IMG/VR virus record: IMGVR_UViG_3300033984_000543 | Location: 1-26,449 of that record | Direction: 5' to 3' (one strand) | DNA from: a virus | Length of the DNA: 26,449 bases | Shown: in pieces, positions 4,388 through 23,648 of the stretch | Layout of the letters: every line of letters begins with the position of its first letter | How positions within the stretch are numbered: position 1 is the first letter of the stretch | Notes under the pieces: model-generated | Told to the model about the DNA's origin: nothing | What the model saw: only the letters and a program-made list of their open reading frames with translations | The model's database searches: none | Made by a program: the position numbers and the translations under genes

Positions 4388-5254
4388 TTACTTATAAGAT
4401 ATTTGTGCAGGAGTAGTTATGAACTGACTCACTAGATGCGTTGTATTACTATTATCAAGTATATGTCTCACTTTTAATTCTTTTGCTCTTAGCGTTGCTT
4501 TCTTGAAGCTTCTAGGACCATAGTCCATATTCTTTTGATTCACTATCTTATCTATTGAAAGACTCTCACATGATGTAGTGAATAATGGAATCTGAGAACT
4601 TATCTCTGCAGCCCAGAATGTATTGTACTGGTAGAAGTTATCACTCTTAGTGTATGTGATAGTTTTGCTCTCAGCATTAAGAATAGGATATTGCATGTAA
4701 GCTTTCATGTTATGAAGAGGCTTAGCTACAAGCTCAAGTATTCCAGAACTCTGTTGTCCATTATATAAGACAGCTTTATTAAACCATTGATCATTTGTTT
4801 CTATCCTTGTGTTATCATCAAACACACCATCAAATATAGGAAGATATTTATATGCCTTAGTATAATCTTTTACATTCTGAAGAATTTCATCTTGGAATTG
4901 ATATGAAAAAGGATACTCAATGATATATGGTTCTATGTGTCCATAGAATTCATTATACTTTTGTATGTTTGTTAAATGTCTCCATAAACATCCAGTTACA
5001 GATTGTGTATATTTTATATTCTGATACTCTACTATATTGATAGGTTTAAGTGGAATAACAACAGAGAGAGTACACTCACCTGTAGAGGTAAGAATAACTT
5101 CATTTACACTAACATCAACTACATAACTTATACCTTCAATCAATGTTTTTCTAGAAACATTTTCAGCTATAATATTACCAAAAGGATCAGTGATGGTAAA
5201 TGGTCCAGCAGTTGGTCCAGTTTGTATTAATTTTATGGTTATAACTTTTGTCAT
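4388..5254 (-). CDS. C-terminal piece of split muzzle protein behind a G-P-F module
   Basis: A 288-residue product of two parts. Residues 1-72 are the G-P-F module (GPF at 17-19, later S-T-G-E-C-T), homologous to the N-termini of the 298- and 85-residue proteins at 15942-16838 and 15665-15922. Residues about 85-288 (W-R-H at 91-93, F-Y-G-H-I-E-P-Y-I-I-E-Y-P, then Y-N-G-Q-Q-S-S-G, D-N-F-Y-Q-Y-N-T-F-W, L-R-A-K-E-L-K-V-R-H, ending P-A-Q-I-S-Y-K) look like the C-terminal region that normally ends crAss-like muzzle (P22 gp10-like) tail proteins. I infer that this gene carries the detached C-terminus of the 1749-residue protein. The ATG follows the preceding stop by 1 nt (TAAGATG), so translational coupling is likely, and it lies in a different frame from its upstream neighbour. 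Confidence 0.8.
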   Translation of the reverse strand: MTKVITIKLIQTGPTAGPFTITDPFGNIIAENVSRKTLIEGISYVVDVSVNEVILTSTGECTLSVVIPLKPINIVEYQNIKYTQSVTGCLWRHLTNIQKYNEFYGHIEPYIIEYPFSYQFQDEILQNVKDYTKAYKYLPIFDGVFDDNTRIETNDQWFNKAVLYNGQQSSGILELVAKPLHNMKAYMQYPILNAESKTITYTKSDNFYQYNTFWAAEISSQIPLFTTSCESLSIDKIVNQKNMDYGPRSFKKATLRAKELKVRHILDNSNTTHLVSQFITTPAQISYK

Positions 5255-5255
5255 C

Positions 5256-6815
5256 TTAAGGAGCAGTTGTAGTGGTTGTTGTTGTTGGTACTATAGTAGT
5301 AGTAGTTGTGGTTGTTGTTACATCTTTAATAATAGGACTAACTACACATGTTCCAATTTGAGTTGCAGAATTTATACTTGATAAATCAATACTATATCCT
5401 AAATTTAATAATACAAAAGGAAATGCTTTAATTATTACATACATATTTCCAGATGCATCTGTAACATAAATATCACAATCACATTCAAATAATGTTACAC
5501 CCCCTACACTTCCAATATTAATATCAAGTTCAAGTGTTCCTGTAGAATAATTGTATTGTGATATGTAATAATCAGAACTTGTCATATCTCTATTGATTAT
5601 AATTATCTGACCTGTCTGCACATATAACGGATTACCATAAGCAACTCTATTTAATAGCAATGTAAACTTAATAGTGGCAGATGCTGTTAATGTAGTGATG
5701 TCTAATTCTGTAACCTCTTGTTGAGATGGTGTATCATTTATACCAATCAATGTAGTGTTATTTAAAGCAACAATTCCAGATGAAGTAGTAAATCCTCCAG
5801 GAAGAGTTATTGTTCTATTAAATGTTGCAGCAAATGGATTTAATACTATGTTCCATTCTTTTATATCAGTATCAATAGACCAGAATCTATTTGTTGTCAT
5901 AGCTATACCTGCAGATGATACATATCCTGGTACAGTTAATGGACTTACAACATTTAATACTTGATCTAAATAGTTTATAGTATCATTAGCTGATAATAAT
6001 ATTCCACAACATTCTGTTAATATAGGTAGAGTGGTGGTGGTGCTAGTTGTTGGACCACAATCACATGTTGATATTTCTACAACTACACCTCCTACAACAT
6101 GATAAAAAATATCAAATGTACGTGAAGAATCTGAAAGATACCATCCATCAGGAACAAATGTACAATCAAGACTATCTCCATAATAAACTATGTTACCAAT
6201 TTCTAATTCAGTTGATGTAGTGGTAGCATACACATTAAATGTATTTAATGTACCATCAAGTGGATTAGCACTAATATATTGAACAACAGGCGAAGCATTA
6301 CATGCATCTTGTAAAGTGGCAATGAATATTACTTCTGGATCTGTTCCTAATGTATATCCTTGTGTAAATATAAATTGAGTTAATAAATTATAAGGTCTTT
6401 GACATATAGTAGTAGTTGTTGTTGGAGGTACAGTGATAATTGCATCACCTACTAATTCACAACTTGTTGTAATTCCTATTCCTACAAGTGTACAATCTAA
6501 CACTGTAGTGGTAGAAGTAGTTGTAGGAGGAGAATAAAAAGTTGTAGTTGATGTAGTGCTAGGTGCCACTTTATTTAACACTCCAGCAATAGCTTTAAAC
6601 CCACCAGCATCAGCATCATCACAACATCCATTAAGTCCTGAATAAAAGAAATTGTTTTCTCCTATATAGAAATTAGGGATGTAGCTATGAAATGATATCC
6701 ATGTTTTAGTGTTTAAATTAAATGACATAGTCCAACTCTTATTACAGAAGTAGTCTGGGTCATTTAAATAAACTTGTGTTCTTAACACTACTGGTGTTTG
6801 TATTTCCTTAGCCAT
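5256..6815 (-). CDS. Middle piece of split muzzle protein carrying Thr/Ser-linked accessory domains
   Basis: A 519-residue product. Residues about 8-65 (D-Y-F-C-N-K-S-W-T-M-S-F, then W-I-S-F-H-S-Y-I-P-N-F-Y and a closing F-Y-S-G) look like an internal segment of crAss-like muzzle proteins that normally lies between the end of the 1749-residue gene's body and the start of the 288-residue gene's second half. The rest is foreign to that family: Thr/Ser linkers at about 85-105, 129-137, 253-263 and 499-519; a paired C-x-L-V-G micro-motif; a beta domain (about 138-252) with a G-W-Y and G-V-V-V-E-I-S-T-C ending; and a longer domain (about 264-498) with F-W-S-I-D, N-R-T-I and Y-I-S-Q-Y-N-Y-S-T-G-T-L-E motifs that reads like a small beta-propeller. 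It ends in bare linker. The start is 4 nt after the previous stop. Confidence 0.75.
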   Translation of the reverse strand: MAKEIQTPVVLRTQVYLNDPDYFCNKSWTMSFNLNTKTWISFHSYIPNFYIGENNFFYSGLNGCCDDADAGGFKAIAGVLNKVAPSTTSTTTFYSPPTTTSTTTVLDCTLVGIGITTSCELVGDAIITVPPTTTTTICQRPYNLLTQFIFTQGYTLGTDPEVIFIATLQDACNASPVVQYISANPLDGTLNTFNVYATTTSTELEIGNIVYYGDSLDCTFVPDGWYLSDSSRTFDIFYHVVGGVVVEISTCDCGPTTSTTTTLPILTECCGILLSANDTINYLDQVLNVVSPLTVPGYVSSAGIAMTTNRFWSIDTDIKEWNIVLNPFAATFNRTITLPGGFTTSSGIVALNNTTLIGINDTPSQQEVTELDITTLTASATIKFTLLLNRVAYGNPLYVQTGQIIIINRDMTSSDYYISQYNYSTGTLELDINIGSVGGVTLFECDCDIYVTDASGNMYVIIKAFPFVLLNLGYSIDLSSINSATQIGTCVVSPIIKDVTTTTTTTTIVPTTTTTTTAP

Positions 6816-6819
6816 TATA

Positions 6820-9800
6820 TTAATTTTTTATTAAACGAACAGAATGTTGAGTTTGTGCTTCTTGAGAACCAAGATTAGCTGTAGTATCAGTATTTCTAAA
6901 GAATATTCTACCACCCATATCAAATCCAGAAGATATACTATAATCTGAATTCCAAAAATATCCATTATATCCTATATTTGCAGGAGGGTGTGTAACTGTT
7001 CCATTTGCAAGCTGCACTCCTCCTGGCAATGCAGTGAAGCCACTAGTATTATCAGCTGGATTAGGACTGAGCCAAAGACTAGTTCCTGTTTGTTTTAAAT
7101 GTCCTCCAGCAACAGAACTTCCACCTAAACAATCTATTACAGTTTGATATTGTGAGGATGAAGGAACATTGTAACCTATTGGAGCAAATTGTTTTCTTAA
7201 TGTAGGATTTAATCTAGATGCAGTGTCATAAACACCAGCTACTGCCCACCAATTATATAGTTTTCCATAAATAGGACCGTTAGCTGGATCAAACGCAGCA
7301 TATGACCAACATCCTATTCTAGCTGCTGCATAAGCAGTTAGTTCATTTTGATTATTTGCTTGAGGAATAATAGTTCCATCTCTATATGTTACAATATCAA
7401 CATTTTTAGATGTCCAATTCACTCCACATATATTTACTACTGGATATAATGTAGTAGAAGTTGTAGTGGTTGTACTTGTACTAGTAGAGGTAGTGGATGT
7501 AGTACTACTTGTACTACTAGACGTAGTGCTTGTTGTAGGTGTATAAATAGTTGTTGTAGTAGTAGTTGATGGAACTACAACATATACAGTTTTCTCAACA
7601 TAGAACTCTTTAGTTATAGGATCATATTTTACATCTTTATCAACTGGAATATAATCTAGTTTGGTAATTATAACTCTTTCAAACTTGCTATCATATACAC
7701 CATGTAATCCAATACCATTAAAATTGTTATCTGTATCAACTCCTGGAATAGTAATTGTTTTACCACCTATAGTTTCTTGATGTGTTGGAAAATATCTAGA
7801 GATTTCAAATGATAAGTGATCTGTTAGGAATCTATTTACACCAGAACCAAATCCTCCTATCTCTTCAATCTTTGTTCCTTCAACTAAAAATACTTGTCCT
7901 CTTTTAGCATCCACTGTAATTTGTCCTTGAGGAATCTTAAGGAAGAATTTATTCTGACTTCCTACATATCCAAGATCTGTTTCAGCAAAATCAATTGGTA
8001 CAGCACTAAATATATTAGGGTTACCCAAATAAGCTGCTTGAGGATTACTTGTATTCATTGTTAATAAATTATTATATAACAATGATTTATTTTCAAATCG
8101 AGCAAGTATAGATTTATTTTGAATACCATCTAATGATATTAGATTACCATAGTTTTGAGGAAAATCAAATAATGATAATGGAGAATAGCTTAACCAATTA
8201 TTTACTCTTACATCAACATTGTTAACCTGAGGATCTGAATATACCACTCTAAATGGATAATATGTAAAGCATAAATCTGATGTCCAATCTGCTGGTAGAT
8301 GTGAAAAGAAGTTCTCTTTATTTTGTTTAGAGAATGTTACATTATAAAAATATGTATTATCATAAGCAATTGTTGTAAACTGTTCTTGTACCCAATCATC
8401 TGGAATACTTGTACTAACATGTGGCCAGAAGTTTCCTTCTCTATCATTAAATGCTTGACGAAGATCTACATTATAATTAGACTCACAATAGAAACTAGGA
8501 ATTCCATATGCAAACAAATAGAAATATCCATCATAAAATGTTCTATATGTACCAGTTCCACCATCAACGGTTGATGATATATCTTCAGGATAATTATAAC
8601 AATCAAAACTATGTGCTTTAATTGATACAATATTTATTAAACTCTTATATGTATATAGAATAGATCTAGCAGAATGCCAGAATTTTGGATAGGCTATATT
8701 ACCAATCTCATCATAGAATATATCACTATCATCTATTCCATTCACTCTATTATCTAAGAAGAATGGAAGTTTTGTTTTGTAAGCAAATTTATTTATAAAT
8801 GTATCTCCACCAAACACTACATCATCAGAATAAGAACTTATATTAAACATTCTTTGAAATCCTGTATCTACTGTTTCATAAGAATATATTTGTCCCCATT
8901 GGTTTACAAATATATTTTTTATTGATGCATAATAAGATACCACTTTAATATCTCTTTCTTTTTCAGGAGTGTTACAATAGTTTATTTTTTCACCTGCAAC
9001 AACTACATCACATGCACCTTTTCCTCCAATAATAAATCTTGAATACTCTGATATTAATGATGTACCATTAGAATCTAAAAGACTTGGTGTTTTGTTAGGA
9101 AATGGAAGAGGATCATATTTATCTATTGTTTTTGTATAGATAGAAGATTCTCTTTGGAAATTATTAATATTTTTATCATCACCAACATTCAATACTCCTG
9201 GATTCAAATATGTATTTATATCAAGTTGTCTTTGTTTAATACCTGTTAGAGTTCCTGATGTAACATTATTACCTATATCTGCAGAGTAATCATAACTAGC
9301 TATAGAGTTAAATGATTGAGCATAGTTCTTTCTTGTAATACCATTTATATAAATAGTTAAGTATGCTTGATAAGCTGTAAATACAGCTGTCATATCTACT
9401 GGACTTGATGCAATAAGAAATGAACTATCTAAAGCATCTTCTTGAGCTTGTTTAGATAGAAGTCTATATTTAGCATTTCCTTTCACTGGAACAAAATGTG
9501 CCACTCCTGCACCAAACATTACATTTTCTAACTTAAGAACATTTCCTAAGAATGGTTGTGAGAATGATGTATCAGGAGAATTAAGTACTTGTCTTCTTGC
9601 AGACTCTGGTTTATTAATAGGTGGAACTGGTTTTGATTGTCCACAAGTTTCATTTAATGGAGATCTTCTACTATAGTTTCCATAACAAGTATTTTTAACA
9701 AAAGGTGGTAGTTCACCAAGAGCTAAAGGAAGAGGATATACAGGTTCTCTTGTACATACAGCTTCAGCACTTCCAGCATATCCATCTCTATTTTCATAAT

Positions 9801-12069
9801 AAGGCCATGTATCAATATCAACTCTATTAAGAATAAGCTCAGGTTGTCCATTACAAAAAAGCCAATAATAAGGATATTGACAATAAGGAACTGTTCCCAT
9901 TCTTAATGTTCTCAATGGAGAATTATCACAAGTATATTGTATATCATATCTTAAAAAATATGGATCTGTACAGATTGCTCCATTAAATCTAAGAACATCA
10001 TAATTACCAGGACCTATACATGCTTTACCTGTTTTATATTCAGGTCTTGTTAAAGAACAGAATTCATAATTTTCACCAGCAACCATTTTATTACAGCTTA
10101 TCAGCTTAGCTGTTAATGTATCTGTATATTCATATGTACCTGATTCTTTACATTCTACAATCCAAACTTTAGATTGTCCTAAACTATCATATGCATTAGA
10201 TGATGCATTTAAGAAAGGATCTTCGTTAAGATCATTATATGGATAGTTTGGATAGTAAAGAGTTTGTTCTTGTCTTGTATATGTTCCAACATTACGAAGC
10301 ATTCCTTTACCAACAATAGATGTATTTGTACTTCTATTACCTCTTACTATTTTGAATCCAGCAATATTATCTTTTTGCTCTTGTGTAATAGAAGAGTTTG
10401 TTATCAATGCTTGAACTTGTGCTATATCCACCTTTACACCCATTGGAAATACAGCATTATTTTGCATCTCTGGTTTAAAAGAATTAGTCAATGCGTATAC
10501 AGGACTTTCAAATATAGGACTAACAAGAACATCAGGAAATTTATGATGTCTAATTCTTTGACCAGCAAGATCCCCCCATACATCTTTATTACAAGGATAT
10601 TCTTCTATAGATTCCCAATAAGCAAAATCACCATATTGATATGGTGTAGCATTTCCAATTGGATTACCTGAAGCTTGTCCTAATACAGTGGCTGTATTAT
10701 ATATCTTCCAGTAAGGACTATATCCAATTCCTGTAACAGGATCAATATAATCAGGCTCACCTATAAAGTCAGCATTAGTTGTTGGTATATCTGGATATTG
10801 TAAATCATTATATGTTAATGTTCTTCCAGGAATATGGAACCCATCTGTTTGCTTTCCATTCTTTAATAAGAATACAATTTCAAATGCATACACCTCATCA
10901 CGTAGATATCCACGTAAGTTTGTAGCATTTAACTCATTAGAATAATTTTCAGTGGAAGGAATTTTATATGTCTCCCATTTAAGATCTATTTGAGATGCTA
11001 TATCTTGGTAGTTGATTCTATCTATAGATGTAAGATTATCCCACATAAGAACATCTTGTGCAGCAGTTACATCTTGAGCTATATCATAGTAAGGATACTT
11101 TTCAAATATATCTGTAAGTGATAGATTGATTAGTGTGTTACTTTGTCCAGTGTAAGTAATTGTATCAACTTCATTTTCAATTGAGTATGTACCAACTAGT
11201 ATTGGTGTAACTACACCATTCACTGTAGCAATTACAGCTATGTTATAATACATATATAGCCCTGATATATCTAAATTTGTAATAGATAGTTCAATAGACT
11301 TACCCACCTTATAATCAAATATAGCAGTTGTTTCAAACTCATCAAACATAGGTGTAGGATTCGTAATAGAATAATATGATGTGTAAGGATTACCTGATGC
11401 ATCAGAATACTGTACAGCAAACTGGTATGTACCAGAAGTAAGATCACCACCATTATATATATTAATCACTTCAAGTTGAGGAATTCTAAAATTAGGTTGT
11501 ATCTTAAGTTGATTACAATCTAATTGATCTGTATAAGTAGGATCACAAATACTTGAATCAATAGTTGGTGTATAAGGAATGTTTTCAATGTCTAAATATC
11601 TTCTAGAATTATATCCATCTGTCCAATATATTTCAGTCTTACAATTTGTAATCTTATGGACCACTTTATGTATTGGATAATTAATATTGAAGTTAAGACA
11701 TGCTGCTTCTACTAATGTACGATATATACAGTCATTATTATCCATGTATCCAATCTGACTCATTCCTATATTAGAATTTACTAGAAAGAATATATGTTTA
11801 TTTTTTTCATTAATAAAATAAGTACCTAATAAAGAATATCCTGATGGAAACTGTAAGCAAAATTCATTAGCTTGTTCATTCTGATAATTAACAGAACTAG
11901 CATCAAAGTTTTCTAAAGCAGCATTCAGTGCATAGGTTAATGTACCAGGTTTGATTTGATTTAAAGTTTGATCCATATTTAAACCAGTAGCTCCAAAATT
12001 AGGCTGTGGTTTAATATTACTTTGATCTCCACCAAGTATTTGTTTTATTTTATCTAACTCGTCTGCCAT
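6820..12069 (-). CDS. Muzzle-type tail protein (P22 gp10-like), N-terminal bulk, with C-terminal FISUMP domain
   Basis: A 1749-residue product, the largest gene here. The N-terminus (N-F-G-A-T-G-L-N-M-D-Q, L-N-A-A-L-E-N, then Y-W-T-D-G-Y-N-S-R-R-Y-L-D-I) follows the pattern I know for the long tail-stabilising or muzzle proteins of crAss-like phages, which close the distal end of the short tail. The muzzle-like body runs to about residue 1500 (G-V-Y-D-S-K-F-E-R-V-I-I-T-K-L-D-Y-I-P, then K-Y-D-P-I-T-K-E-F-Y). Homologs continue here; this one instead enters a Thr/Ser linker (1501-1541) and then a FISUMP domain (about 1542-1749). The missing C-terminal segments appear in the next two ORFs. The gene lies between a connector gene and the cargo genes, the expected place. 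The muzzle assignment is strong, the fold of the body is inferred. Confidence 0.85.
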   Translation of the reverse strand: MADELDKIKQILGGDQSNIKPQPNFGATGLNMDQTLNQIKPGTLTYALNAALENFDASSVNYQNEQANEFCLQFPSGYSLLGTYFINEKNKHIFFLVNSNIGMSQIGYMDNNDCIYRTLVEAACLNFNINYPIHKVVHKITNCKTEIYWTDGYNSRRYLDIENIPYTPTIDSSICDPTYTDQLDCNQLKIQPNFRIPQLEVINIYNGGDLTSGTYQFAVQYSDASGNPYTSYYSITNPTPMFDEFETTAIFDYKVGKSIELSITNLDISGLYMYYNIAVIATVNGVVTPILVGTYSIENEVDTITYTGQSNTLINLSLTDIFEKYPYYDIAQDVTAAQDVLMWDNLTSIDRINYQDIASQIDLKWETYKIPSTENYSNELNATNLRGYLRDEVYAFEIVFLLKNGKQTDGFHIPGRTLTYNDLQYPDIPTTNADFIGEPDYIDPVTGIGYSPYWKIYNTATVLGQASGNPIGNATPYQYGDFAYWESIEEYPCNKDVWGDLAGQRIRHHKFPDVLVSPIFESPVYALTNSFKPEMQNNAVFPMGVKVDIAQVQALITNSSITQEQKDNIAGFKIVRGNRSTNTSIVGKGMLRNVGTYTRQEQTLYYPNYPYNDLNEDPFLNASSNAYDSLGQSKVWIVECKESGTYEYTDTLTAKLISCNKMVAGENYEFCSLTRPEYKTGKACIGPGNYDVLRFNGAICTDPYFLRYDIQYTCDNSPLRTLRMGTVPYCQYPYYWLFCNGQPELILNRVDIDTWPYYENRDGYAGSAEAVCTREPVYPLPLALGELPPFVKNTCYGNYSRRSPLNETCGQSKPVPPINKPESARRQVLNSPDTSFSQPFLGNVLKLENVMFGAGVAHFVPVKGNAKYRLLSKQAQEDALDSSFLIASSPVDMTAVFTAYQAYLTIYINGITRKNYAQSFNSIASYDYSADIGNNVTSGTLTGIKQRQLDINTYLNPGVLNVGDDKNINNFQRESSIYTKTIDKYDPLPFPNKTPSLLDSNGTSLISEYSRFIIGGKGACDVVVAGEKINYCNTPEKERDIKVVSYYASIKNIFVNQWGQIYSYETVDTGFQRMFNISSYSDDVVFGGDTFINKFAYKTKLPFFLDNRVNGIDDSDIFYDEIGNIAYPKFWHSARSILYTYKSLINIVSIKAHSFDCYNYPEDISSTVDGGTGTYRTFYDGYFYLFAYGIPSFYCESNYNVDLRQAFNDREGNFWPHVSTSIPDDWVQEQFTTIAYDNTYFYNVTFSKQNKENFFSHLPADWTSDLCFTYYPFRVVYSDPQVNNVDVRVNNWLSYSPLSLFDFPQNYGNLISLDGIQNKSILARFENKSLLYNNLLTMNTSNPQAAYLGNPNIFSAVPIDFAETDLGYVGSQNKFFLKIPQGQITVDAKRGQVFLVEGTKIEEIGGFGSGVNRFLTDHLSFEISRYFPTHQETIGGKTITIPGVDTDNNFNGIGLHGVYDSKFERVIITKLDYIPVDKDVKYDPITKEFYVEKTVYVVVPSTTTTTTIYTPTTSTTSSSTSSTTSTTSTSTSTTTTTSTTLYPVVNICGVNWTSKNVDIVTYRDGTIIPQANNQNELTAYAAARIGCWSYAAFDPANGPIYGKLYNWWAVAGVYDTASRLNPTLRKQFAPIGYNVPSSSQYQTVIDCLGGSSVAGGHLKQTGTSLWLSPNPADNTSGFTALPGGVQLANGTVTHPPANIGYNGYFWNSDYSISSGFDMGGRIFFRNTDTTANLGSQEAQTQHSVRLIKN
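6823..7446 (-). other. FISUMP domain (Fibrobacter succinogenes major paralogous domain) encoded within the muzzle gene
   Basis: Residues about 1542-1749 of the 1749-residue protein. Visible FISUMP hallmarks in order: I-C-G-V-N-W-T-S-K-N-V, Y-R-D-G-T-I-I-P, Y-G-K-L-Y-N-W-W-A-V, L-x-P-T-L-R-K-Q-F-A-P-I-G-Y-N-V-P-S, C-L-G-G, G-G-H-L-K-Q-T-G, N-T-S-G-F-T-A-L-P-G-G, G-Y-F-W-N-S and the terminal H-S-V-R-L-I-K. The family is typical of secreted Bacteroidota and Fibrobacter proteins and has a C-type-lectin-like fold. On a phage tail tip it is a natural candidate for binding host surface glycans or proteins; that function is inferred. Confidence 0.92.
7447..7569 (-). repeat. Thr/Ser linker in the muzzle gene
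   Basis: About 41 codons, residues 1501-1541, almost all Thr or Ser with a single I-Y-T-P interruption. It joins the muzzle body to the FISUMP domain. Codons are mixed (ACA, ACT, AGT, TCT), so the DNA is a degenerate rather than perfect repeat. Confidence 0.9.
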
Positions 12070-12074
12070 AATGA

Positions 12075-13049
12075 TTAGTTATTACGTCTTCTACCATATC
12101 TATTAGTACGGTTAGGAAGTTCATACATATTGAATCTATTAAGATCGTTTTTAATTCTTCTCTGTTTCTCCCAAGGAGTTTGTTTCTTAATCTCAATACT
12201 AGCCATGATGAAAGCTTCTTCATAGGCTTGTTTGTGATAGATTAACTTTTGTTGTAACTGATTAAAAGTTTCATCATTAGTTTGATTGGTAAGAGTTTCG
12301 AATATCTTAAACTTAAGGAATGCTTCTACATACTCTCTAATACGATAGTTGTCAGGAATCAATTGATTACCTATCTCATCATACTCTGTAGCATAGAATA
12401 TTAAATGCACAACACCATTTCTGAAATTAGTTACAAACTTATTATCTCGTATATCAAATGAATCATAACTAGCAGATCCAGGAGTGAACTCATGGATAGG
12501 AGGAGCTTCAGCATAGAAGTCCCAGTTGTTTGTATATTCTACTCCACAGTTTTGTCTTGCAGAGATGTTTCCAGGCTTAAGTAAATAGTCATGGGTGAAC
12601 CCTCTAGCAACAGTGTTATTTGTTTTGTAAACAGCTTGAACTAACACAGGCATACATGTACCATCACATTGTGGAACTTGACAACCAGGTCTATTACAAG
12701 GAGTTCCTCCAATAGTTAGTGGAGCCACTTGAATAGTGGTAGCAGAAGCTGCTTGAGAATAGAATGAATTAGCTGATTGATATGGATATCCTGCAACCTC
12801 TGTAGTCATCCAAGCTTCTCTAACAGCATAAAAGTTGTCAGGAAGTCTAGCTTCAAAGTCTTCAATAAATAAAACTTCATCAGTAATTACATAGGTAGTT
12901 CTTCCTAACTTCTTTAGAGCTTTGTCTAAGTAAGTAGGAAATAACAAATCGTCTACAGCACCTGTATCAAAATAAGATTTTAATTCTTCTTTAACAGTTG
13001 AGTAGACAGGTTCTGGGCTTATGAAAGCATATTTATAATAGTACGACAT
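12075..13049 (-). CDS. Head-tail connector / ring-type protein with a cysteine knuckle
   Basis: A 324-residue protein directly before the muzzle gene, with a 5-nt gap. The N-terminal part (T-Y-L-D-K-A-L-K-K-L-G-R, then F-E-A-R-L-P-D-N-F-Y-A-V-R-E-A-W) and the C-terminal part (Y-R-I-R-E-Y-V-E-A-F-L-K-F-K-I-F-E-T-L, then Y-H-K-Q-A-Y-E-E-A) are what I expect of the conserved crAss-like connector protein in this position: helices packing in a ring below the portal. Residues 118-132 add a compact cluster, C-x4-C-x4-C-x3-C, in a loop between these blocks. The C-terminus is strongly basic (R-I-K-N-D-L-N-R then N-R-Y-G-R-R-R-N-N), suitable for contact with DNA or an acidic surface. No enzyme motif is visible. 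The assignment rests on position and remembered patterns. Confidence 0.72.
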   Translation of the reverse strand: MSYYYKYAFISPEPVYSTVKEELKSYFDTGAVDDLLFPTYLDKALKKLGRTTYVITDEVLFIEDFEARLPDNFYAVREAWMTTEVAGYPYQSANSFYSQAASATTIQVAPLTIGGTPCNRPGCQVPQCDGTCMPVLVQAVYKTNNTVARGFTHDYLLKPGNISARQNCGVEYTNNWDFYAEAPPIHEFTPGSASYDSFDIRDNKFVTNFRNGVVHLIFYATEYDEIGNQLIPDNYRIREYVEAFLKFKIFETLTNQTNDETFNQLQQKLIYHKQAYEEAFIMASIEIKKQTPWEKQRRIKNDLNRFNMYELPNRTNRYGRRRNN

Positions 13050-13052
13050 AAT

Positions 13053-13532
13053 TTATTTTTTCCATTCGTTATAGATATATTGATACTTGTCGTTGGTCTT
13101 TAAGTAATGTGATAAAAGTCTTGATGTAAGTCTAGAAGGTTTGAAATACCAGAAGTCAGAATTCTTAAAACGTGCTGTTGGTTTAAACCACATCCAACCA
13201 AAAAAATAACCTTCCGTATGATAATTAAAGTTATATATAATCTTTCCTTTCTCTTTAGTTTTCTGCCAGTCAATTGGTAAGTTGATAAATTCTTTACCAT
13301 CTATATTATTTTTTAGTCTTCTTCTTTTCTTTTTATTAATAGAGAACTCTCCAAATCCATAAGGAAGCTTTGCTTTCTCACCTGTCTCTAATATATATTC
13401 TTTAAAAGATTCATTGTAGGTATATAATATATTCCTCCACTCATCAAAGGTTAACTTTATAGCTGAGTGTTTTTTGCAGAACTGATTATAGTTATCTTTG
13501 CTAGAGCTTCTCCAATCAATCTTTGTCCTCAT
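13053..13532 (-). CDS. Conserved small basic crAss-like protein of the connector region
   Basis: A 159-residue, Lys/Trp/Tyr-rich protein. Its ATG overlaps the preceding stop by 1 nt (TAATG), and its own stop is 3 nt before the connector gene, so the three genes are tightly coupled. Recognisable blocks are F-C-K-K-H-S-A-I-K-L-T-F-D-E-W, E-K-A-K-L-P-Y-G-F-G-E-F-S-I-N-K-K-K-R-R and N-Y-H-T-E-G-Y-F-F-G-W-M-W. I recall proteins of this type as conserved in crAss-like genomes between connector genes, with no settled function. The K-K-K-R-R-R-L-K-K run may contact nucleic acid. No known catalytic motif is present. It could be a minor virion or assembly protein. Confidence 0.65.
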   Translation of the reverse strand: MRTKIDWRSSSKDNYNQFCKKHSAIKLTFDEWRNILYTYNESFKEYILETGEKAKLPYGFGEFSINKKKRRRLKNNIDGKEFINLPIDWQKTKEKGKIIYNFNYHTEGYFFGWMWFKPTARFKNSDFWYFKPSRLTSRLLSHYLKTNDKYQYIYNEWKK

Positions 13533-14262: not shown

Positions 14263-15483
14263 TTATATTCGAGTTTCAAACTCTGCTATCTTACCTAGAT
14301 CAAGATCATAGACTAAAGCAAGAGCTGCTCGTACTGAGTGTACGAAGTTATTATCTAAGTGCCATCTATCTGTTCCAGACAAACTAGGCATTTGTTGTAT
14401 TCTTACTCCCTTAACCTCTTTAGCCATATAGTGATGTTTATCACCTGTATGTATCTCTCTGTATTTAGCATTACCAAATGCTTGACTATATTGAGGATGT
14501 GTTGCAAATAACAATGGTAAGTCTTCTAACTTACAATTACCATGATGCCATCCAATAAATGTATTTCCTAATGTTAATCCTTTAACAGTTGAATGCTCTC
14601 TTATAAATTCTACATCTTCTGTATTACTGAAGTAAACATCTAATGCATGAGCTAAATAAAAAGACTTAGTTCTGTCATGATTACCTTGTACAAGAACTAC
14701 CTGTACAGTACTAGAATGTTGTCTCAACATATTAATTGTATCTACAAGAACAGCAAATCCTAATTCATATTCTGAATGGTAATCCATTATAGTGTCCTGT
14801 GGTGTACCATTTGTAGTTTGATGTTGATAGTTATCAGTATGAAAGAAATCATTTGATATAGGCAACACTACGGTGTTTACATTGTAATTAGCCTCCACTT
14901 TATTAATCAAAGACTGAGCCACATTAAAATATCTCAAAGCTCTGGTTGATGGATCATTATCACCATCTACTGTTCTCTTAGCTAAATGATAATCAGCTAT
15001 AGAGATTTCTACATCTACATAGTCTTTACTATTAGTACGATCTACTTTGGTGATTGATATATTATTTGGTTTGTAGTTTTGTAGGAATTTAGCAAAGTCT
15101 TCAGGAGAGTAGTCTTTTGCTTGTTTTAGTTTTGAGAACACTGAGGAAGTAAACTTCCCACTTGGTAACATCTTAGACCAGTAGTTGGTAATGATGTATT
15201 TATCTAGGTTTATCTTGTGTAGCTTAGCTAGTTCAAGATCATCTTTAGGTTCATGGTCAGTTACAATTGTACTTTCTATTGTTCCTCTTTCAACATTCAC
15301 TTTACGTTCTTCTGTGTAGTTTTTTCCTGTATTCACAGGATCATCATCTTTTTCTCTGAGCTCTTTGAGAAGCTCATTCACTTCATATTCACTTATTCCT
15401 AATTTCTCTGCATAGAATTTTTTACTTTTCTTCTGCGTTAACAACTCTTCTAATTGACATAACAAGCTTTGATTTTCAGACAT
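14263..15483 (-). CDS. Calcineurin-like metallophosphoesterase with N-terminal helix-turn-helix-like region
   Basis: A 406-residue protein, first gene of the left operon behind the promoter candidate. Metallophosphoesterase motifs can be read in order: D164-x-H166 (A-D-Y-H-L-A-K), N211-D212 (S-N-D-F-F-H-T-D, normally G-D), G-N-H-D at 267-270, H-H-G at 313-315 and G-D-K-H-H at 347-351 (normally G-H-x-H). Most metal ligands are kept. Residues about 20-42 (K-K-F-Y-A-E-K-L-G-I-S-E-Y-E-V-N-E-L-L) look like a helix-turn-helix. The family hydrolyses phosphodiesters, including DNA ends. Why it sits with tail-assembly genes is unclear; DNA processing during packaging or ejection is only a guess. The start is supported by the stop (TGA) in the frame of the nearby upstream ATG. 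Confidence 0.88.
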   Translation of the reverse strand: MSENQSLLCQLEELLTQKKSKKFYAEKLGISEYEVNELLKELREKDDDPVNTGKNYTEERKVNVERGTIESTIVTDHEPKDDLELAKLHKINLDKYIITNYWSKMLPSGKFTSSVFSKLKQAKDYSPEDFAKFLQNYKPNNISITKVDRTNSKDYVDVEISIADYHLAKRTVDGDNDPSTRALRYFNVAQSLINKVEANYNVNTVVLPISNDFFHTDNYQHQTTNGTPQDTIMDYHSEYELGFAVLVDTINMLRQHSSTVQVVLVQGNHDRTKSFYLAHALDVYFSNTEDVEFIREHSTVKGLTLGNTFIGWHHGNCKLEDLPLLFATHPQYSQAFGNAKYREIHTGDKHHYMAKEVKGVRIQQMPSLSGTDRWHLDNNFVHSVRAALALVYDLDLGKIAEFETRI

Positions 15484-15941: not shown

Positions 15942-16838
15942 TTATGCTGGAATCTCACAATGTGTCATATCTGTACAGTCATAAGTACTTGATCCATACA
16001 AATATGCATCTGTTGCATTATTAGGATATGCTGTATCTATTATTGTACCACAATGAATTACTGTCTGACCATCAAAAGGTGCTGTAAATTGTACTACGTC
16101 ACCCACACTCCATGATGTAGCACCTTTTGGCATATTGTAATTAAATCCACTAACACACGCTATCACTTCATAGTTAGTATATGCTATAGGAGAAGTAGTG
16201 GTAGTTGTAGTAGATGGAAAACAAGGAGATCCTTGTATTGTAGCTTCTGGATGGGTATCAGTAATTAAAGGTACGGCAGCACATATTACAACTGAAGGAC
16301 CTGCAGGACCCACTTCAATAATATCTGGTACAACAGATCCACAAGGATAATAATCTACTATATGTATGTCACCAATAACAGGTTCTATTGTGAATGATGC
16401 ACATAGTGTAAGAGGTTCTTCAGTGGTAGTTGTAGTGGTTGTTGGAGCTGCAGTAGTTGTACTAGTGGTTGTTGATGTACTAGTTGATGTTGATGTACTA
16501 GTAGATGTGCTAGTACTGGTAGATGTGCTAGTACTAGTAGATGTTGATGTAGAAGTACTTGTACTAGTTGAAGTACTAGTTGAAGTACTAGAACTTGTAG
16601 TGGTGGTTGTAGGAATTAAATCAATTACTATAAAAATAGCATTTGTGCACACTCCTGTTGATTGCACTTTAATTATAGTTGTTCCATTAGGTACAACTGT
16701 TGATGTATATCCAGCTATTAAAGCTGCTGCAGATATACCTGTTGCAAATGGTAGCACATATCCATCTGTATTTGAATATAGGTCAAAAGGACCAGCGTCC
16801 CCACCAATTGGTAATACCAATGTTATTAATGTTGTCAT
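15942..16838 (-). CDS. G-P-F module protein with long Ser-Thr repeat and two C-terminal beta domains
   Basis: A 298-residue product. Residues 1-76 are the G-P-F module (A-G-P-F-D-L-Y-S-N-T-D-G-Y-V, S-T-G-V-C-T-N). Residues 77-139 are a linker dominated by alternating Ser-Thr, then A-A-P and a Thr run to E-E-P. Two small cysteine-containing beta-rich domains follow: about 142-214 (C-A-S-F-T-I-E-P ... D-Y-Y-P-C-G ... V-V-I-C-A) and about 223-298 (Y-E-V-I-A-C ... V-I-H-C-G-T ... Y-D-C-T-D-M-T-H-C), joined by a short Thr/Ser linker. I recognise the domain style from fibre-like proteins of Bacteroidota phages but can name no function; surface binding is the natural guess. It lies between two other modular genes with gaps of 19-28 nt. 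Confidence 0.75.
   Translation of the reverse strand: MTTLITLVLPIGGDAGPFDLYSNTDGYVLPFATGISAAALIAGYTSTVVPNGTTIIKVQSTGVCTNAIFIVIDLIPTTTTTSSSTSTSTSTSTSTSTSTSTSTSTSTSTSTSTSTSTSTSTSTTTSTTTAAPTTTTTTTEEPLTLCASFTIEPVIGDIHIVDYYPCGSVVPDIIEVGPAGPSVVICAAVPLITDTHPEATIQGSPCFPSTTTTTTSPIAYTNYEVIACVSGFNYNMPKGATSWSVGDVVQFTAPFDGQTVIHCGTIIDTAYPNNATDAYLYGSSTYDCTDMTHCEIPA
16422..16610 (-). repeat. Alternating Ser-Thr linker (63 codons)
   Basis: Residues 77-139 of the 298-residue protein. The core is a strict S-T dipeptide repeat written with mixed codons, giving imperfect 6-bp and longer repeats in the DNA, for example GATGTGCTAGTACT twice on the plus strand near 16504-16535. It is the longest dipeptide tract in the window and a likely site of length variation. 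Confidence 0.9.
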
Positions 16839-17246: not shown

Positions 17247-19274
17247 TTATGCTATACAAGGAGTAAGTAAAGCATTAGTTGCACCATTATTATTATTTGA
17301 TGTAATTTCTGTTGCACATATTGGAACCATACTTCCACCATCAGGAACATTTACTGTTTGAGGATCTCCTAAACAATCTAAATATTCTACTGTATGAAAG
17401 GTTCCTGGGTTAAATACAGGAGGATAAACTTCTACATTATAACATTGTGGTGAAGGAGTAGATGTAGTAGTACTTGTTGTTGTAGGAGCTGCAGTGGTTG
17501 TAGTGGTTGTTGTTGGACAACTTGCACATGTACCAGTTTGTGTAGCAAAAGTTCCAGAAGCATTGACAAAGAAACTTCTAACTAACGAAGAACTAGATTG
17601 TTTAGCATATATGGTTGTATTTGCAACACCATAAGGAATAAAATTAGCATATATATTATTTGTGTCACAAATACTTGTTGCACCACCATCAAGAGTTACA
17701 CTTATGTTATAGTAATTCTGATTACAAGCAAATGCAGAGGTTGGCCCAAACCAAATAAATACGGAAGTTCTAGTAGTTGTGGTTGTTGTTGTAGGAGCTG
17801 CTGTTGTTGTTGTAGTAGTTGTAGGTTCAATTGTAGTTGTAGTAGTAGTTGTAGGTTCTGTTGTTGTAGTAGAACTAGTTGTACTAGAAGTGCTACTAGA
17901 AGTAGTAGTAGTTGTAGGAACAGCAGTGGTAGTTGTAGTTGTAGTTACTTCTTCAGCATATCCAGTAAATTCACAATCTAATGCTACTGTAGTAGAAGTT
18001 GTTGTAGTAGGAGAACAATCTCCATTTACTGAGCAACTTGAATATAAAATAGTGTATGTACTATCTATAGCAGGGAAGTATATAGGATTATCATTTTTAT
18101 AATAAAACATTTGTATATTTCCTATTTCTGATGTCTTAATACAAAAACCACTAACTCCTGCAGTTGTATATGCAAAATCTGCATCTGATCCATCACATCC
18201 ACTACTTTTTGGAGTAATTATGTAAACTGTGTTATTAGCTTTTCCTGGTGAAGGTGTATTTCCTGTAGCATCATCTAAATCTATTTGAGATATATTAACA
18301 TTCACACATGAACAAGCAAAAGGATAAACTGTTGTAGTAGAAGTAGTTGTACTACTTGTACTACTTGATGTACTTGTTGTTGTTGTAGTTGTAGAAATTC
18401 CAACACATGATCCACCAACACAATCAGCTCCAATTGTAATAAATACATAATTATCACTTGCAAATCCTTGAGATCCACAAAATTGCAATGTTTGTTGTGC
18501 AAATATATTAGTTCCAACAAACTCACCAGCACAATCAGTATATGAAATAGTATGATTACTATCATCTGTATTCTCAAAAGTTAAACACTCACAAGGAATA
18601 GCTGTTGTTGTTGTAGTGGTTGTAGAACTAGTTGAAGTTGTACTAGAAGTAGAAGATGATGATGTTGTAGTAGTTGTTGGAGGAGTACAAGGACCATTTG
18701 GTGTCACTATAATTGTTCCAGGAACAGTTAGAGGACTATCTGTTATAACACAAATATTTGTATCTCCTGGATTTAATATAATAGCTTCTGGCTCTCCTGT
18801 ATCACAATCAGTGATAATTATAGCTACTGGATCTTCTCCTGTATTAGTTAATGAGAAGTTTTCACAAGGATGTACTGTTGTTGTACTACTTGTTGTTGAA
18901 GTAGAACTTGAACTAGTTGTTGTTGTACAACATTCACCTAATTGATTATATATATTAATTATATCACCTTCAATGTTTATTATCTCTGTAGTAATATTAT
19001 TAATTTGAATAGTTAATATATTAATCTGTGTTAATAGATTACATATAATTGAATCAATCTTTTCTAATATTACATTAAGTGTATCACATGGCTCAGCTAT
19101 TATACAAGATAATGCAGGACCATTATATACAATGGTACTAGAAGCAGTTAGATTAGTTGAACATGGATTGTTATTATTACAACCACTATTAGTAATTGTA
19201 GAACTACATCCACAAGGATCATTTATAACTACATCTGTGCAGCAAGGATTGACTGGTAAAAAAGGATATGCCAT
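17247..19274 (-). CDS. Multi-domain Thr/Ser-linked fibre protein
   Basis: A 675-residue product. Residues 34-116 are the Y-x-G module and coiled coil; the region before is Cys/Asn-rich. Then beads on a string: linker 117-133, domain 136-198; linker 200-224, domain 228-292; linker 294-315, domain 318-421; linker, the micro-motif L-D-C-E-F-T-G-Y-A-E-E-V (432-443), a long linker 444-502 with T7-x-x-P repeats, domain 503-586; linker 587-607, domain 610-675. The first, second and last domains share an I-x-Y/T-D-C-x-G core and a later Cys, so they are probably one small family copied within the gene. No enzyme motif is seen. This looks like a flexible virion fibre presenting several binding domains. 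Its neighbours on both sides share its N-terminal module. Confidence 0.8.
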   Translation of the reverse strand: MAYPFLPVNPCCTDVVINDPCGCSSTITNSGCNNNNPCSTNLTASSTIVYNGPALSCIIAEPCDTLNVILEKIDSIICNLLTQINILTIQINNITTEIINIEGDIINIYNQLGECCTTTTSSSSTSTTSSTTTVHPCENFSLTNTGEDPVAIIITDCDTGEPEAIILNPGDTNICVITDSPLTVPGTIIVTPNGPCTPPTTTTTSSSSTSSTTSTSSTTTTTTTAIPCECLTFENTDDSNHTISYTDCAGEFVGTNIFAQQTLQFCGSQGFASDNYVFITIGADCVGGSCVGISTTTTTTSTSSSTSSTTTSTTTVYPFACSCVNVNISQIDLDDATGNTPSPGKANNTVYIITPKSSGCDGSDADFAYTTAGVSGFCIKTSEIGNIQMFYYKNDNPIYFPAIDSTYTILYSSCSVNGDCSPTTTTSTTVALDCEFTGYAEEVTTTTTTTAVPTTTTTSSSTSSTTSSTTTTEPTTTTTTTIEPTTTTTTTAAPTTTTTTTRTSVFIWFGPTSAFACNQNYYNISVTLDGGATSICDTNNIYANFIPYGVANTTIYAKQSSSSLVRSFFVNASGTFATQTGTCASCPTTTTTTTAAPTTTSTTTSTPSPQCYNVEVYPPVFNPGTFHTVEYLDCLGDPQTVNVPDGGSMVPICATEITSNNNNGATNALLTPCIA
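17769..17945 (-). repeat. Long Thr/Ser linker with T7-x-x-P units
   Basis: Residues 444-502 of the 675-residue protein. It contains a run of about ten-residue units (T-T-T-T-E-P, T7-I-E-P, T7-A-A-P, T7), a 30-bp-period repeat at roughly 17772-17861, next to a mixed Ser/Thr section. Confidence 0.88.
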
Positions 19275-20451: not shown

Positions 20452-21705
20452 TTATAAAGCATCAAAGTGCGTATAGATTGTATTGACTTCCATTGGATTT
20501 ATTGTAGTGGTGGTAGTTGTTGTTGTACTTGAACTACTGCTAGTAGTAGTAGTAGTTGTAGGTTCAATACCACATATATCCATATCAAATGAAGTTCCAG
20601 CCAAACTTGCAGAATTATTTCCTGTTATTGTAATTGTAGTGAAAGGTGCATCTGCAACCACTTCAATGTTTCCACCTATCCTATCAATAGGATTAGACAT
20701 AGAACCTGCAACAACATTCGGAGCCTCAACTCTAAAGTCACCACATCCAGCAATTACATTTACTATTGTATTTGTAGAATTTGTTGTAAATGTGTAATAT
20801 TCTGATACTCCTAGTTGGTCATAATAACCTATTGATTCTAATACAAATTTTACTGCAGTTTGAGGAGCACTATATGTTATTGTAAATGTGAAAGCTCCAC
20901 TATTATAATTTAAAGGTATAGTTCCTCCAATTCCAACATCTCCACCAAATTGCCCACCTACACAATTAGTGAAAGGAGGTTGAATTCCAGTAAGTAATGC
21001 AGGTCCTACATATGTAGTGCTAATTACTAATCCAGAACTAAGTGTCATTGTTCCATTACCTGTAGTTCTATTTGGAAAACCTACAGGACCTGAATAACCA
21101 GCAGTACATGCTAAAACATAAGCAGTAGTGGTTGTTGTTGTTGTACTAGAAGTAGAAGAACTAGTAGTAGTACTTGTAGAACTACTAGTTGTAGTTGTAG
21201 TTGGTGGTGCTGTAGTAGTAGTACTGGTTGTAGTTGGTGGTGCTGTAGTAGTAGTACTGGTTGTAGAAGTACTGGTAGAACTTGAGCTAGTAGTAGTTGT
21301 AGATGTACTACTGGTAGAACTTGTAGTTGTAGTTGTAATTCTTTGAGTTGTACTAGTTGTTGTTGTAGAAGGGTTTGGTACAATAGTGATATCACAAGGA
21401 ACCTCTAAACAAGGCTCTGGTGTATTACATCTACTAACACAACCCACTGTAAGACGAATAACTCTGCTAGCTATCATAGCCACAGAGTATTCATGTAAAT
21501 AGTTAGGATTACAATACTTGTGAGTAAGTATCCTTCTATATGCAATTAATTGAAGCATGCTACCAGCAGGTATAGGTTGATTCAACATGTATGAAACATT
21601 GTTGTATAAACTATTACCAAGCTCAGCTAACTTGCAATCTATTTTTTTAAGTAAAGAAGGAATGTTTGCACATTCTGGGCAATTCGTTAGTCTTGGTGAT
21701 AACAT
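20452..21705 (-). CDS. Virion protein with conserved N-domain and Thr/Ser-linked beta-sandwich
   Basis: A 417-residue product. Residues 1-108 form a Cys-containing domain (C-P-E-C at 9-12, L-L-K-K-I-D-C-K-L-A-E-L-G, then I-A-Y-R-R-I-L-T-H-K-Y-C-N-P-N-Y-L) whose style I associate with conserved crAss-like virion proteins. A Thr/Ser linker at 113-193 follows. Residues about 196-380 are a beta-rich domain (F-T-I-T-Y-S-A-P, V-K-F-V-L-E-S-I-G-Y-Y, I-T-I-T-G-N-N-S, I-C-G-I) that looks like a carbohydrate-binding-type sandwich, though I cannot name a family. A second linker and a short tail (N-T-I-Y-T-H-F-D-A-L) end it. I read it as a core structural domain with a display domain added. It starts 10 nt after the 31-residue gene. 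Confidence 0.75.
   Translation of the reverse strand: MLSPRLTNCPECANIPSLLKKIDCKLAELGNSLYNNVSYMLNQPIPAGSMLQLIAYRRILTHKYCNPNYLHEYSVAMIASRVIRLTVGCVSRCNTPEPCLEVPCDITIVPNPSTTTTSTTQRITTTTTSSTSSTSTTTTSSSSTSTSTTSTTTTAPPTTTSTTTTAPPTTTTTSSSTSTTTSSSTSSTTTTTTTAYVLACTAGYSGPVGFPNRTTGNGTMTLSSGLVISTTYVGPALLTGIQPPFTNCVGGQFGGDVGIGGTIPLNYNSGAFTFTITYSAPQTAVKFVLESIGYYDQLGVSEYYTFTTNSTNTIVNVIAGCGDFRVEAPNVVAGSMSNPIDRIGGNIEVVADAPFTTITITGNNSASLAGTSFDMDICGIEPTTTTTTSSSSSTTTTTTTTINPMEVNTIYTHFDAL
21125..21369 (-). repeat. Thr/Ser linker with a perfect 33-bp tandem repeat
   Basis: Residues 113-193 of the 417-residue protein. Within it, 21194-21266 is a perfect 33-bp-period repeat, about 2.2 copies with 40 consecutive matching positions, encoding the 11-residue unit T-T-T-T-A-P-P-T-T-T-S. 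Perfect identity at synonymous sites marks a recent duplication. Confidence 0.9.
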
Positions 21706-22466: not shown

Positions 22467-23648
22467 TTAAGGGATAAGAGTAGAAGTTGTAGTAGTAGTA
22501 GATGCAGGAGCACTAGATGTAGTAGTTGTAGTAGTAATACAAGTATTATTATCTACAACAGCACCTAAAGCAGCAACTAATACAGCTTCGATATCTGCAG
22601 CAATTGTAGCACCACCTGTTTGTGAAGCAGCATTTGGAGCAGCAATGATCACTGTAGAATCTTCTTGAATGTAATCACCCCATTGATATGCAGATTTATC
22701 ATATTCATTGAATTTGATATAATACGTATCATAAGTAGCACCACCAGATACCCAAGACTCAAAGTTCTCATTGTATCCATTCATTCTGTAAAGGTGTTTC
22801 AAATACCCAGCTTGATAGCTGTAGAAGTTTTTCTCTAGTTGAGCAATCTCTGCAGATTGTCCTGTAGCATAAGAAGCACGTTGTGTGATGATAGGCTGTG
22901 CAACAAAGTTACAAGCATCAGCAACAATAAAGTCAGCAGTAGTAGCTGGACCAGCATATACAAACGTTCTGAAAGACATTCTGTCATATTCAAAAGGGAA
23001 CGCTGCAATATCACAAGGTTGTCCATATACGGTCAATGGTTTTCCAGTAATACGAAGAATAGTTCCACCTACATTTTCAAATGTATAGAATGTAGAGAAA
23101 GAAATGTTATCAGGGTTGTTTCCTGGAGCTTTCAAGTTTAATTGATAAATCAATTCATTGATGATAGTGTTATCACTTACATCAGCACATGGGTTAGCAT
23201 CGCAATCACAACAAGGTGCTTGAATAGTTACTGAACGAGTGAAACCATTGAAATACAATGTATCAATATAAGAAGAGTGAGCACGTAAAGTTAACGTGAT
23301 AACTTCTCCACATTGTACAGTGAAATCAGTTACATCAGTAATTTGATTAGCAGCTGTTGGGCATCCTGATGCTTTATACCATTCAGTTACATTAGATTTA
23401 CAAGCAGTACCTGTTACACATCCAGCAATTCTGTCTGAACGTTTAGATCCTTGTAAATAAGTGTTTGTTCTACCTTGTGCAACGTAGAAATAAGGGAAGT
23501 TAGCAATTGTAGCAGAACTAACTGTTGCATACAAATTGTTAAAGATTCCAACTTGTCCTGCAGTCAAGTTTTGTGTCGAACCAGAGCTAGGGAGTGCAGC
23601 TTGCCCTACTGGAACCACGAAGAGCGTGGTTAATGAAAAATCAGCCAT
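22467..23648 (-). CDS. Abundant virion protein candidate (auxiliary capsid or tail component) with Thr/Ser tail
   Basis: A 393-residue product. It begins M-A-D-F-S-L-T-T-L-F-V-V-P-V-G-Q and continues with A-G-Q-V-G-I-F-N-N, Y-F-Y-V-A-Q-G-R-T-N and Q-G-S-K-R-S-D-R-I, a pattern I associate with major non-MCP virion proteins of Bacteroidota phages. A Cys-rich patch (C-C-D-C-D-A-N-P-C) lies near residue 150. Residues about 370-393 are a Thr/Ser tail (C-I-T-T-T..., ending S-T-L-I-P), so even this candidate shell or tail component carries the linker motif, with nothing after it. The nucleotide composition is slightly richer in GC than the fibre genes, and the strong hairpin that follows would fit a highly expressed gene. 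The exact role is uncertain. Confidence 0.65.
   Translation of the reverse strand: MADFSLTTLFVVPVGQAALPSSGSTQNLTAGQVGIFNNLYATVSSATIANFPYFYVAQGRTNTYLQGSKRSDRIAGCVTGTACKSNVTEWYKASGCPTAANQITDVTDFTVQCGEVITLTLRAHSSYIDTLYFNGFTRSVTIQAPCCDCDANPCADVSDNTIINELIYQLNLKAPGNNPDNISFSTFYTFENVGGTILRITGKPLTVYGQPCDIAAFPFEYDRMSFRTFVYAGPATTADFIVADACNFVAQPIITQRASYATGQSAEIAQLEKNFYSYQAGYLKHLYRMNGYNENFESWVSGGATYDTYYIKFNEYDKSAYQWGDYIQEDSTVIIAAPNAASQTGGATIAADIEAVLVAALGAVVDNNTCITTTTTTSSAPASTTTTTSTLIP

Follow-up and report, generated by a model that had tools for sequence, protein, structure and literature searches.

A FISUMP domain at a cut in a crassvirus muzzle protein: a candidate exchangeable surface-binding cassette

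Crassviruses are the most abundant human gut phages; little is known of how they recognize and open their hosts, and their muzzle has been seen chiefly as a gate. Phage tails are known to carry modular receptor-binding domains. The window studied here (the whole analyzed stretch of 26,449 nucleotides, IMG/VR record IMGVR_UViG_3300033984_000543) carries a muzzle gene that closes in a Thr/Ser linker and a FISUMP domain, raising the question of what such a domain does on a presumed gate and how it came to stand there. The reading that we favor, at a probability of roughly 0.64, is that FISUMP is an exchangeable surface-binding cassette at a permissive β-hairpin tip of the crassvirus muzzle. What is unusual is that the domain docks where an otherwise conserved virion protein is cut; our literature search returned no paper joining FISUMP with phage or crAss, and none on a “threonine-rich linker” in phage tails.

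The muzzle ORF, including linker and FISUMP (chain A, 1749 aa), occupies positions 6820–12069 on the minus strand. Its N-terminal part matches crAss_MUZ (PF25731; 95.4 bits against a cut-off of 27 bits, Pfam E 3.6e-27), bearing out the muzzle identity that a sequence-only reading had given to the protein body, and the core (residues 1–1500; 7570–12069, minus strand) matches PHROG 37948 (E 8.5e-89, over 903–1543); homologues of this core were found at 80 IMG/VR loci. The upstream neighbor, adjoining the muzzle gene, is tail ring protein 1 (12075–13049, minus strand; CrAss_Ring_1, Pfam E 4.2e-9). Both the N-terminal profile and the ring-protein neighbor are shared with the crassvirus muzzle PhicrAss001 gp44 (PMC10172136).

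The same reading had assigned the C-terminal 208 residues (1542–1749; 6823–7446, minus strand) to FISUMP, and assignment and placement are both correct. PF09603 (Fib_succ_major) aligns to residues 1545–1748 with profile positions 1–187 fully covered, scoring 70.9 bits with the whole protein and 76.3 bits with the domain alone (E 2e-19 and 5e-21; curated cut-off 33.9 bits), and the NCBIfam model TIGR02145 scores 46–51 bits, with 50.9 for the FISUMP domain (cut-off 41.65 bits). The profile match far exceeds chance. The motifs YGKLYNW, APxGYxxP, W..PN, GGxLK and C-terminal RLIK(D/N) are all present in alignments, the window copy ending in VRLIKN-stop, and a profile search of the 26.4-kb record revealed no second PF09603 match. 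Whole profile, C-terminal position and (V)RLIK(D/N)-stop ending are all as in the FISUMP family at large. The linker (residues 1501–1541; 7447–7569, minus strand), read directly from the sequence, is 41 residues long as had been claimed, but Thr and Ser account for 37 of these rather than 41, the others being I, Y, P and L; counterpart Thr/Ser linkers stand at the equivalent point in L002, L166, L168, L170, L007 and L045.

The muzzle does not end where chain A does. PHROG profiles derived from single muzzle proteins map onto three consecutive window genes (chains A, B and C), chain A taking the core, the start of chain B a 48-residue stretch and chain C the final 190 profile positions. The chain A stop codon (6820–6822) and a 4-nt gap (together 6816–6822, minus strand) are followed by the ATG of chain B (5256–6815), in a different frame; stop readthrough from chain A into chain B was rejected on account of these differing frames. 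The first 66 residues of chain B (B_N; 6618–6815, minus strand) match PHROG 15100 at 1540–1586 and PHROG 37948 at 2051–2099 and are joined to the core in uncut relatives. The rest of chain B (5256–6617, minus strand), two more domains on Thr/Ser linkers, corresponds to the muzzle C-terminus of uncut relatives, B_mid and B_late matching C-terminal parts of uncut muzzles of 1.7–2.1 kaa (L063, L061 and L008). Chain C (288 aa; 4388–5254, minus strand) is the C-terminal muzzle piece, matching PHROG 15100 at positions 1589–1780, and its motif LWSH..TNKS..V/TFYG has a counterpart past B_N in the uncut muzzles of csAssE-Sib and Lbo-JY46. In these two distant crassviruses and a faecal contig, the core, the B_N match and a further C-terminal stretch form one ORF. 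Judged by sequence, the muzzle homology of the split protein is beyond doubt, and the usual single-chain state, as in the one gene of PhicrAss001 gp44, departs here to three genes.

This arrangement modifies the earlier view of a domain mounted on the tail tip through a linker: muzzle, linker and FISUMP all stand, but the domain does not simply hang from the muzzle end, for two further genes carry the muzzle on and the cassette lies at the cut. In the particle it may stand on a side face of the β-propeller rather than at the extreme tip.

We compared the core–B_N junction across IMG/VR relatives (66 with a readable junction; 70 after four more records, window included). Core and B_N share one chain in 52 of the 66 and stand apart in 14, or 52 versus 18 in the larger set, such that the polypeptide is uninterrupted across the junction in most relatives; in the window, the chain instead exits into linker, FISUMP and stop, the remainder of the muzzle restarting as a gene 4 nt on. 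Uncut relatives pass from core to B_N through a few residues, five of them (L028, L034, L038, L046 and L074) with a Thr/Ser loop at the exact junction. Where the muzzle is cut, chain A closes with nothing but a Thr/Ser tail (the bare state: L005, L011, L041 and L043), with linker and FISUMP (the window, L002, L166, L168, L170, L007 and L045), with linker, other domain, linker and FISUMP (L017, L018 and L024), or with linker and an unrelated domain (L033). FISUMP thus occupies the junction in 10 of 70 relatives (window included), a variable element rather than a conserved part of all muzzles, and the comparison of relatives for presence, absence or replacement of the domain finds every one of these states at the same site. 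The muzzle-core tree places the cut state in separate clades. Outside these records, the muzzle homologue gp43 of Cellulophaga phage phi17:2 bears an in-frame insert of roughly 250–300 residues at the same junction, although here the chain is uncut and the insert lacks a Thr/Ser linker and is absent among FISUMP matches. Because the survey states and the phi17:2 insert fall at the same point, we regard the junction as a recurrent insertion site in the order. Two further observations were made during the survey. One distant muzzle (L172, 3–5603; about 22–30% identity over aligned parts) has repeated secreted-protein-like domains followed by a C-terminal FISUMP, apparently an independent case. 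L011 holds an ORF resembling (by eye) a GIY-YIG homing endonuclease between conserved tail genes upstream of the muzzle; such elements could promote recombination near the muzzle.

Separation has left B_N under strong purifying selection although it is now part of a separate gene (omega 0.00–0.21 in cut lineages versus 0.09–0.11 in uncut lineages), and FISUMP is also constrained (dN/dS 0.51 for window versus L002; 0.21–0.60 for other pairs). Purifying selection still acts on both halves of the muzzle. These data bear on two ways of doing without a cut protein. One would make FISUMP an ordinary C-terminal receptor-binding domain and the next gene an unrelated small tail protein; adhesive C-terminal domains are indeed common on phage tail proteins, and the A/B gene boundary resembles any other in the cluster. 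We hold this to be highly improbable, and largely refuted by the homology of chain B and its continuity with the muzzle: the 66 residues that open the next gene are muzzle-like and run on from the core in the 52 relatives (of 70) counted above, and B_N is conserved as strongly as the core. The other would ascribe the cut to an assembly or sequencing artefact, namely a frameshift in a single-chain gene, as L025 (excluded from support for the cut) may illustrate in resembling a simple frameshift. For the window clade this is scarcely credible, and we take it as refuted by recurrence: numerous independent contigs share the cut, chain B has a proper start codon, the A–B gap differs (2 nt in L017, L018 and L024 against 4 nt in the window clade), and a whole domain of 160–200 residues lies between the halves.

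How a virion protein might tolerate such a break is suggested by a local model. In the predicted structure of an uncut L003 fragment (overall pLDDT 42, residues about 530–670 confident), the junction is the turn between strands 634–642 and 645–651 (local pLDDT about 81–89), such that the break would fall at a β-hairpin tip; a cut at this position is one that strand pairing in trans could tolerate. A PDB sequence search with the muzzle profile gave no match, and the junction was therefore not placed on the PhicrAss001 structure; Foldseek with the muzzle-fragment model gave nothing significant (weak top matches included β-propeller peptidases, which we do not use as evidence). Crassvirus muzzles are known to differ in length through insertions within their crass and IG2 domains (PMC10172136). 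Relative to gp44, the window cassette lies at a later β-hairpin near the C-terminus, apparently, from chain order, outside these insertions.

Evidence for exchange and loss of the cassette comes from close relatives. Between the window and L166, nucleotide identity is near 0.9 in the flanks, 0.35–0.7 across FISUMP, and 0.97 directly past the stop, a pattern that would fit replacement of an allele bounded by a conserved linker and a conserved 3′ end, though also fast divergence. Loss is suggested by a nine-base string, AAAGATTAA, which encodes the FISUMP ending (I)KD-stop in L017, L018, L024 and L168 and stands non-coding just before the chain B ATG in the bare L005, L041 and L043. A scan of the 25 nt upstream of 696 ORFs (minimum length 200 aa, first 80 loci) found 8 occurrences, every one before chain B; the Fisher p of 7e-8 overstates independence, the lineages being related, and among the five bare records L005, L006 and L030 are duplicates of a single sequence. 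In the three bare lineages the string resembles a footprint left by a cassette since lost, and the order of events, cassette first and cut second, would follow mainly from this short footprint.

The reverse path appears in L003 (muzzle at 8001–13379), a mosaic locus. In the muzzle-core tree it falls within the cut clade, whereas the ring protein, the junction and chain C derive from the uncut L016/L042/L044 clade (97–99% and 84–85% identity); recombination would therefore have joined a cut-lineage core to a covalently attached B, and we read L003 as a natural re-joining of the muzzle.

Variation in the muzzle extends beyond the junction. Residues 421–780 (9730–10809) are 76% identical between window and L002 with an omega of 0.9, flanked by stretches of 94–98% identity, and probably form a second variable surface region. 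Elsewhere in the tail cluster, at least five other genes carry Thr/Ser tracts (15942–16838, 17247–19274, 20452–21705, 22467–23648 and 5256–6815), with a tandem repeat at 16458–16591 encoding a 54-residue Thr/Ser stretch; such tracts may act as recombination joints between tail genes. The cluster also contains a DNA repair exonuclease-like gene (14263–15483; PHROG 704, E 8.8e-52).

A retroelement could in principle generate variation of this kind. Fib_succ_major is a documented target domain of diversity-generating retroelements (DGRs; PMC4159848, PMC8143477), as in some Fib_succ_major and DUF1566 proteins of Bacteroides phages, and DGRs exist in crAss-like phages (PMC7290462). We searched 19 relatives' records (12 of them 96–124 kb, the window itself being a 26-kb fragment) for reverse transcriptase (PF00078) and found none; moreover, the last 49 residues of FISUMP, the expected variable-repeat site, are 98% identical between window and L002, the remainder of the domain being the more variable part. 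With neither a reverse transcriptase in these records nor a hypervariable C-terminal repeat, we dropped the mechanism, which we consider very unlikely here.

A host origin had been suggested for the window's FISUMP. Bacterial members of the family are secreted proteins or lipoproteins of Bacteroidota and neighbors, with signal peptides and usually without Thr/Ser linkers, in contrast to the window copy on a phage muzzle. FISUMP is also frequent in IMG/VR phages, mostly in ORFs without a muzzle match and often after Thr/Ser linkers. In our tree (which omits L002, near-identical to the window), the window domain falls together with five further FISUMPs from phage muzzles (SH-aLRT 99), next to which come mixed phage tail genes and secreted Flavobacteriaceae proteins, the latter further off at 42–49% identity and the deep branches weak. 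The copies of L017, L018 and L024 group with phage tail-gene FISUMPs, one from L018 itself (SH-aLRT 96), and the extra domain beside them resembles a domain of the same phages' upstream FISUMP gene; on these two grounds, copying from one tail gene to another within a phage is likely in these three. A quick tree had suggested two separate acquisitions of muzzle FISUMP, an idea set aside when an AU test did not reject a single clade (p 0.89).

Direct capture from secreted FISUMP proteins of the present host is hence unlikely, though it would accord with the abundance of signal-peptide FISUMP proteins in Flavobacteriaceae (up to 49% identity to the window domain) and with the distant L172 muzzle, whose FISUMP groups with Flavobacteriaceae sequences; against it stand the two phage groupings just described, with the same weakness of the deep branches. 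The host-derived label may hold for the FISUMP family, not demonstrably for the window copy, and the phylogeny does not support it as it was worded. As side observations, two phage ORFs carry five and four tandem FISUMP domains without Thr/Ser linkers (L187, 4314–7376; L213, 2538–5531), and the FISUMP contigs L086, L106 and L142, assigned to MAGs of Comamonas, Streptomyces and Bifidobacterium, may come from Bacteroidota and have been binned wrongly.

What might the cassette bind? A PDB sequence search with the FISUMP domain or alignment profiles A1, A2 and A4 returned no usable match, hence no fold by homology, and a FISUMP model (pLDDT 64) gave Foldseek E values above 2, not significant. Of 104 FISUMP sequences, 12 match PF07603 (Lcl_C/DUF1566) at E < 0.01, and a structural aligner's second-look list (25 entries) consists wholly of C-type lectins or Lcl-CTD except for an EgtB sulfoxide synthase. 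The C-type-lectin-like fold proposed earlier is thus indirectly supported, but at low Z (2.1–3.9) and from a model of limited confidence. The PF07603 member Lcl, a Legionella adhesin, is C-type-lectin-like by DALI and binds sulphated glycans through a domain likewise at its C-terminus (PMC11162425); Lcl differs in being trimeric on a collagen-like stalk, and the window FISUMP itself does not reach PF07603. In PhicrAss001 the muzzle forms a hexamer, and contact with the cell has been proposed for its outer loops (PMC10172136); on account of this hexamer, a virion would be expected to carry six tethered FISUMP copies.

From family, position, tether and turnover, outward-facing surface binding appears the likeliest function, and the attachment role proposed from sequence is retained in that form. 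Other uses, such as binding of environmental polysaccharide or particles, or trimerization and stability of the tail tip, we consider doubtful; the related C-terminal domain of Lcl does bind sulphated polysaccharides and form trimers (PMC11162425), and FISUMP is present in many other Thr/Ser-linked phage ORFs, but receptor choice accords better with the muzzle position and with the exchange seen between close relatives, and a trimerizing role is ill-suited to a hexamer. As a surface-binding cassette, FISUMP would recall the C-type-lectin receptor-binding proteins of DGR phages (Mtd, Bacuni phage targets, tentaclins; PMC8143477, PMC10743442), likewise lectin-like domains on phage tails with presumed receptor choice; unlike these, the window type varies by cassette exchange and loss, with no reverse transcriptase found in the relatives' records and no hypervariable C-terminus.

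We propose that an inserted linker–FISUMP–stop cassette cut an ancestral single-chain muzzle; that chains A, B and C would assemble by strand pairing in trans, displaying six copies per virion on flexible tethers; that FISUMP would bind a glycan or glycoprotein on a host from the Bacteroidota, aiding the docking of the muzzle for ejection; and that allele replacement and loss of the cassette would tune host range. The wider principle, to which we give even odds, is that a stop-containing display cassette at a hairpin tip can split an essential virion protein into separate chains with assembly retained, the cut becoming an evolutionary docking site at which lectin-like domains are swapped, from which loss leaves a permanent split and a footprint, and which recombination with an uncut relative can reseal (as in L003). 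The locus would then be a clear example of a conserved structural protein of a virus whose gene has undergone fission, with a likely account of how this happens and of how it can be undone, and the natural genome series—uncut, with a Thr/Ser loop, cut and bare, cut with a lectin-like domain—makes a possible role of the muzzle in host recognition directly testable.
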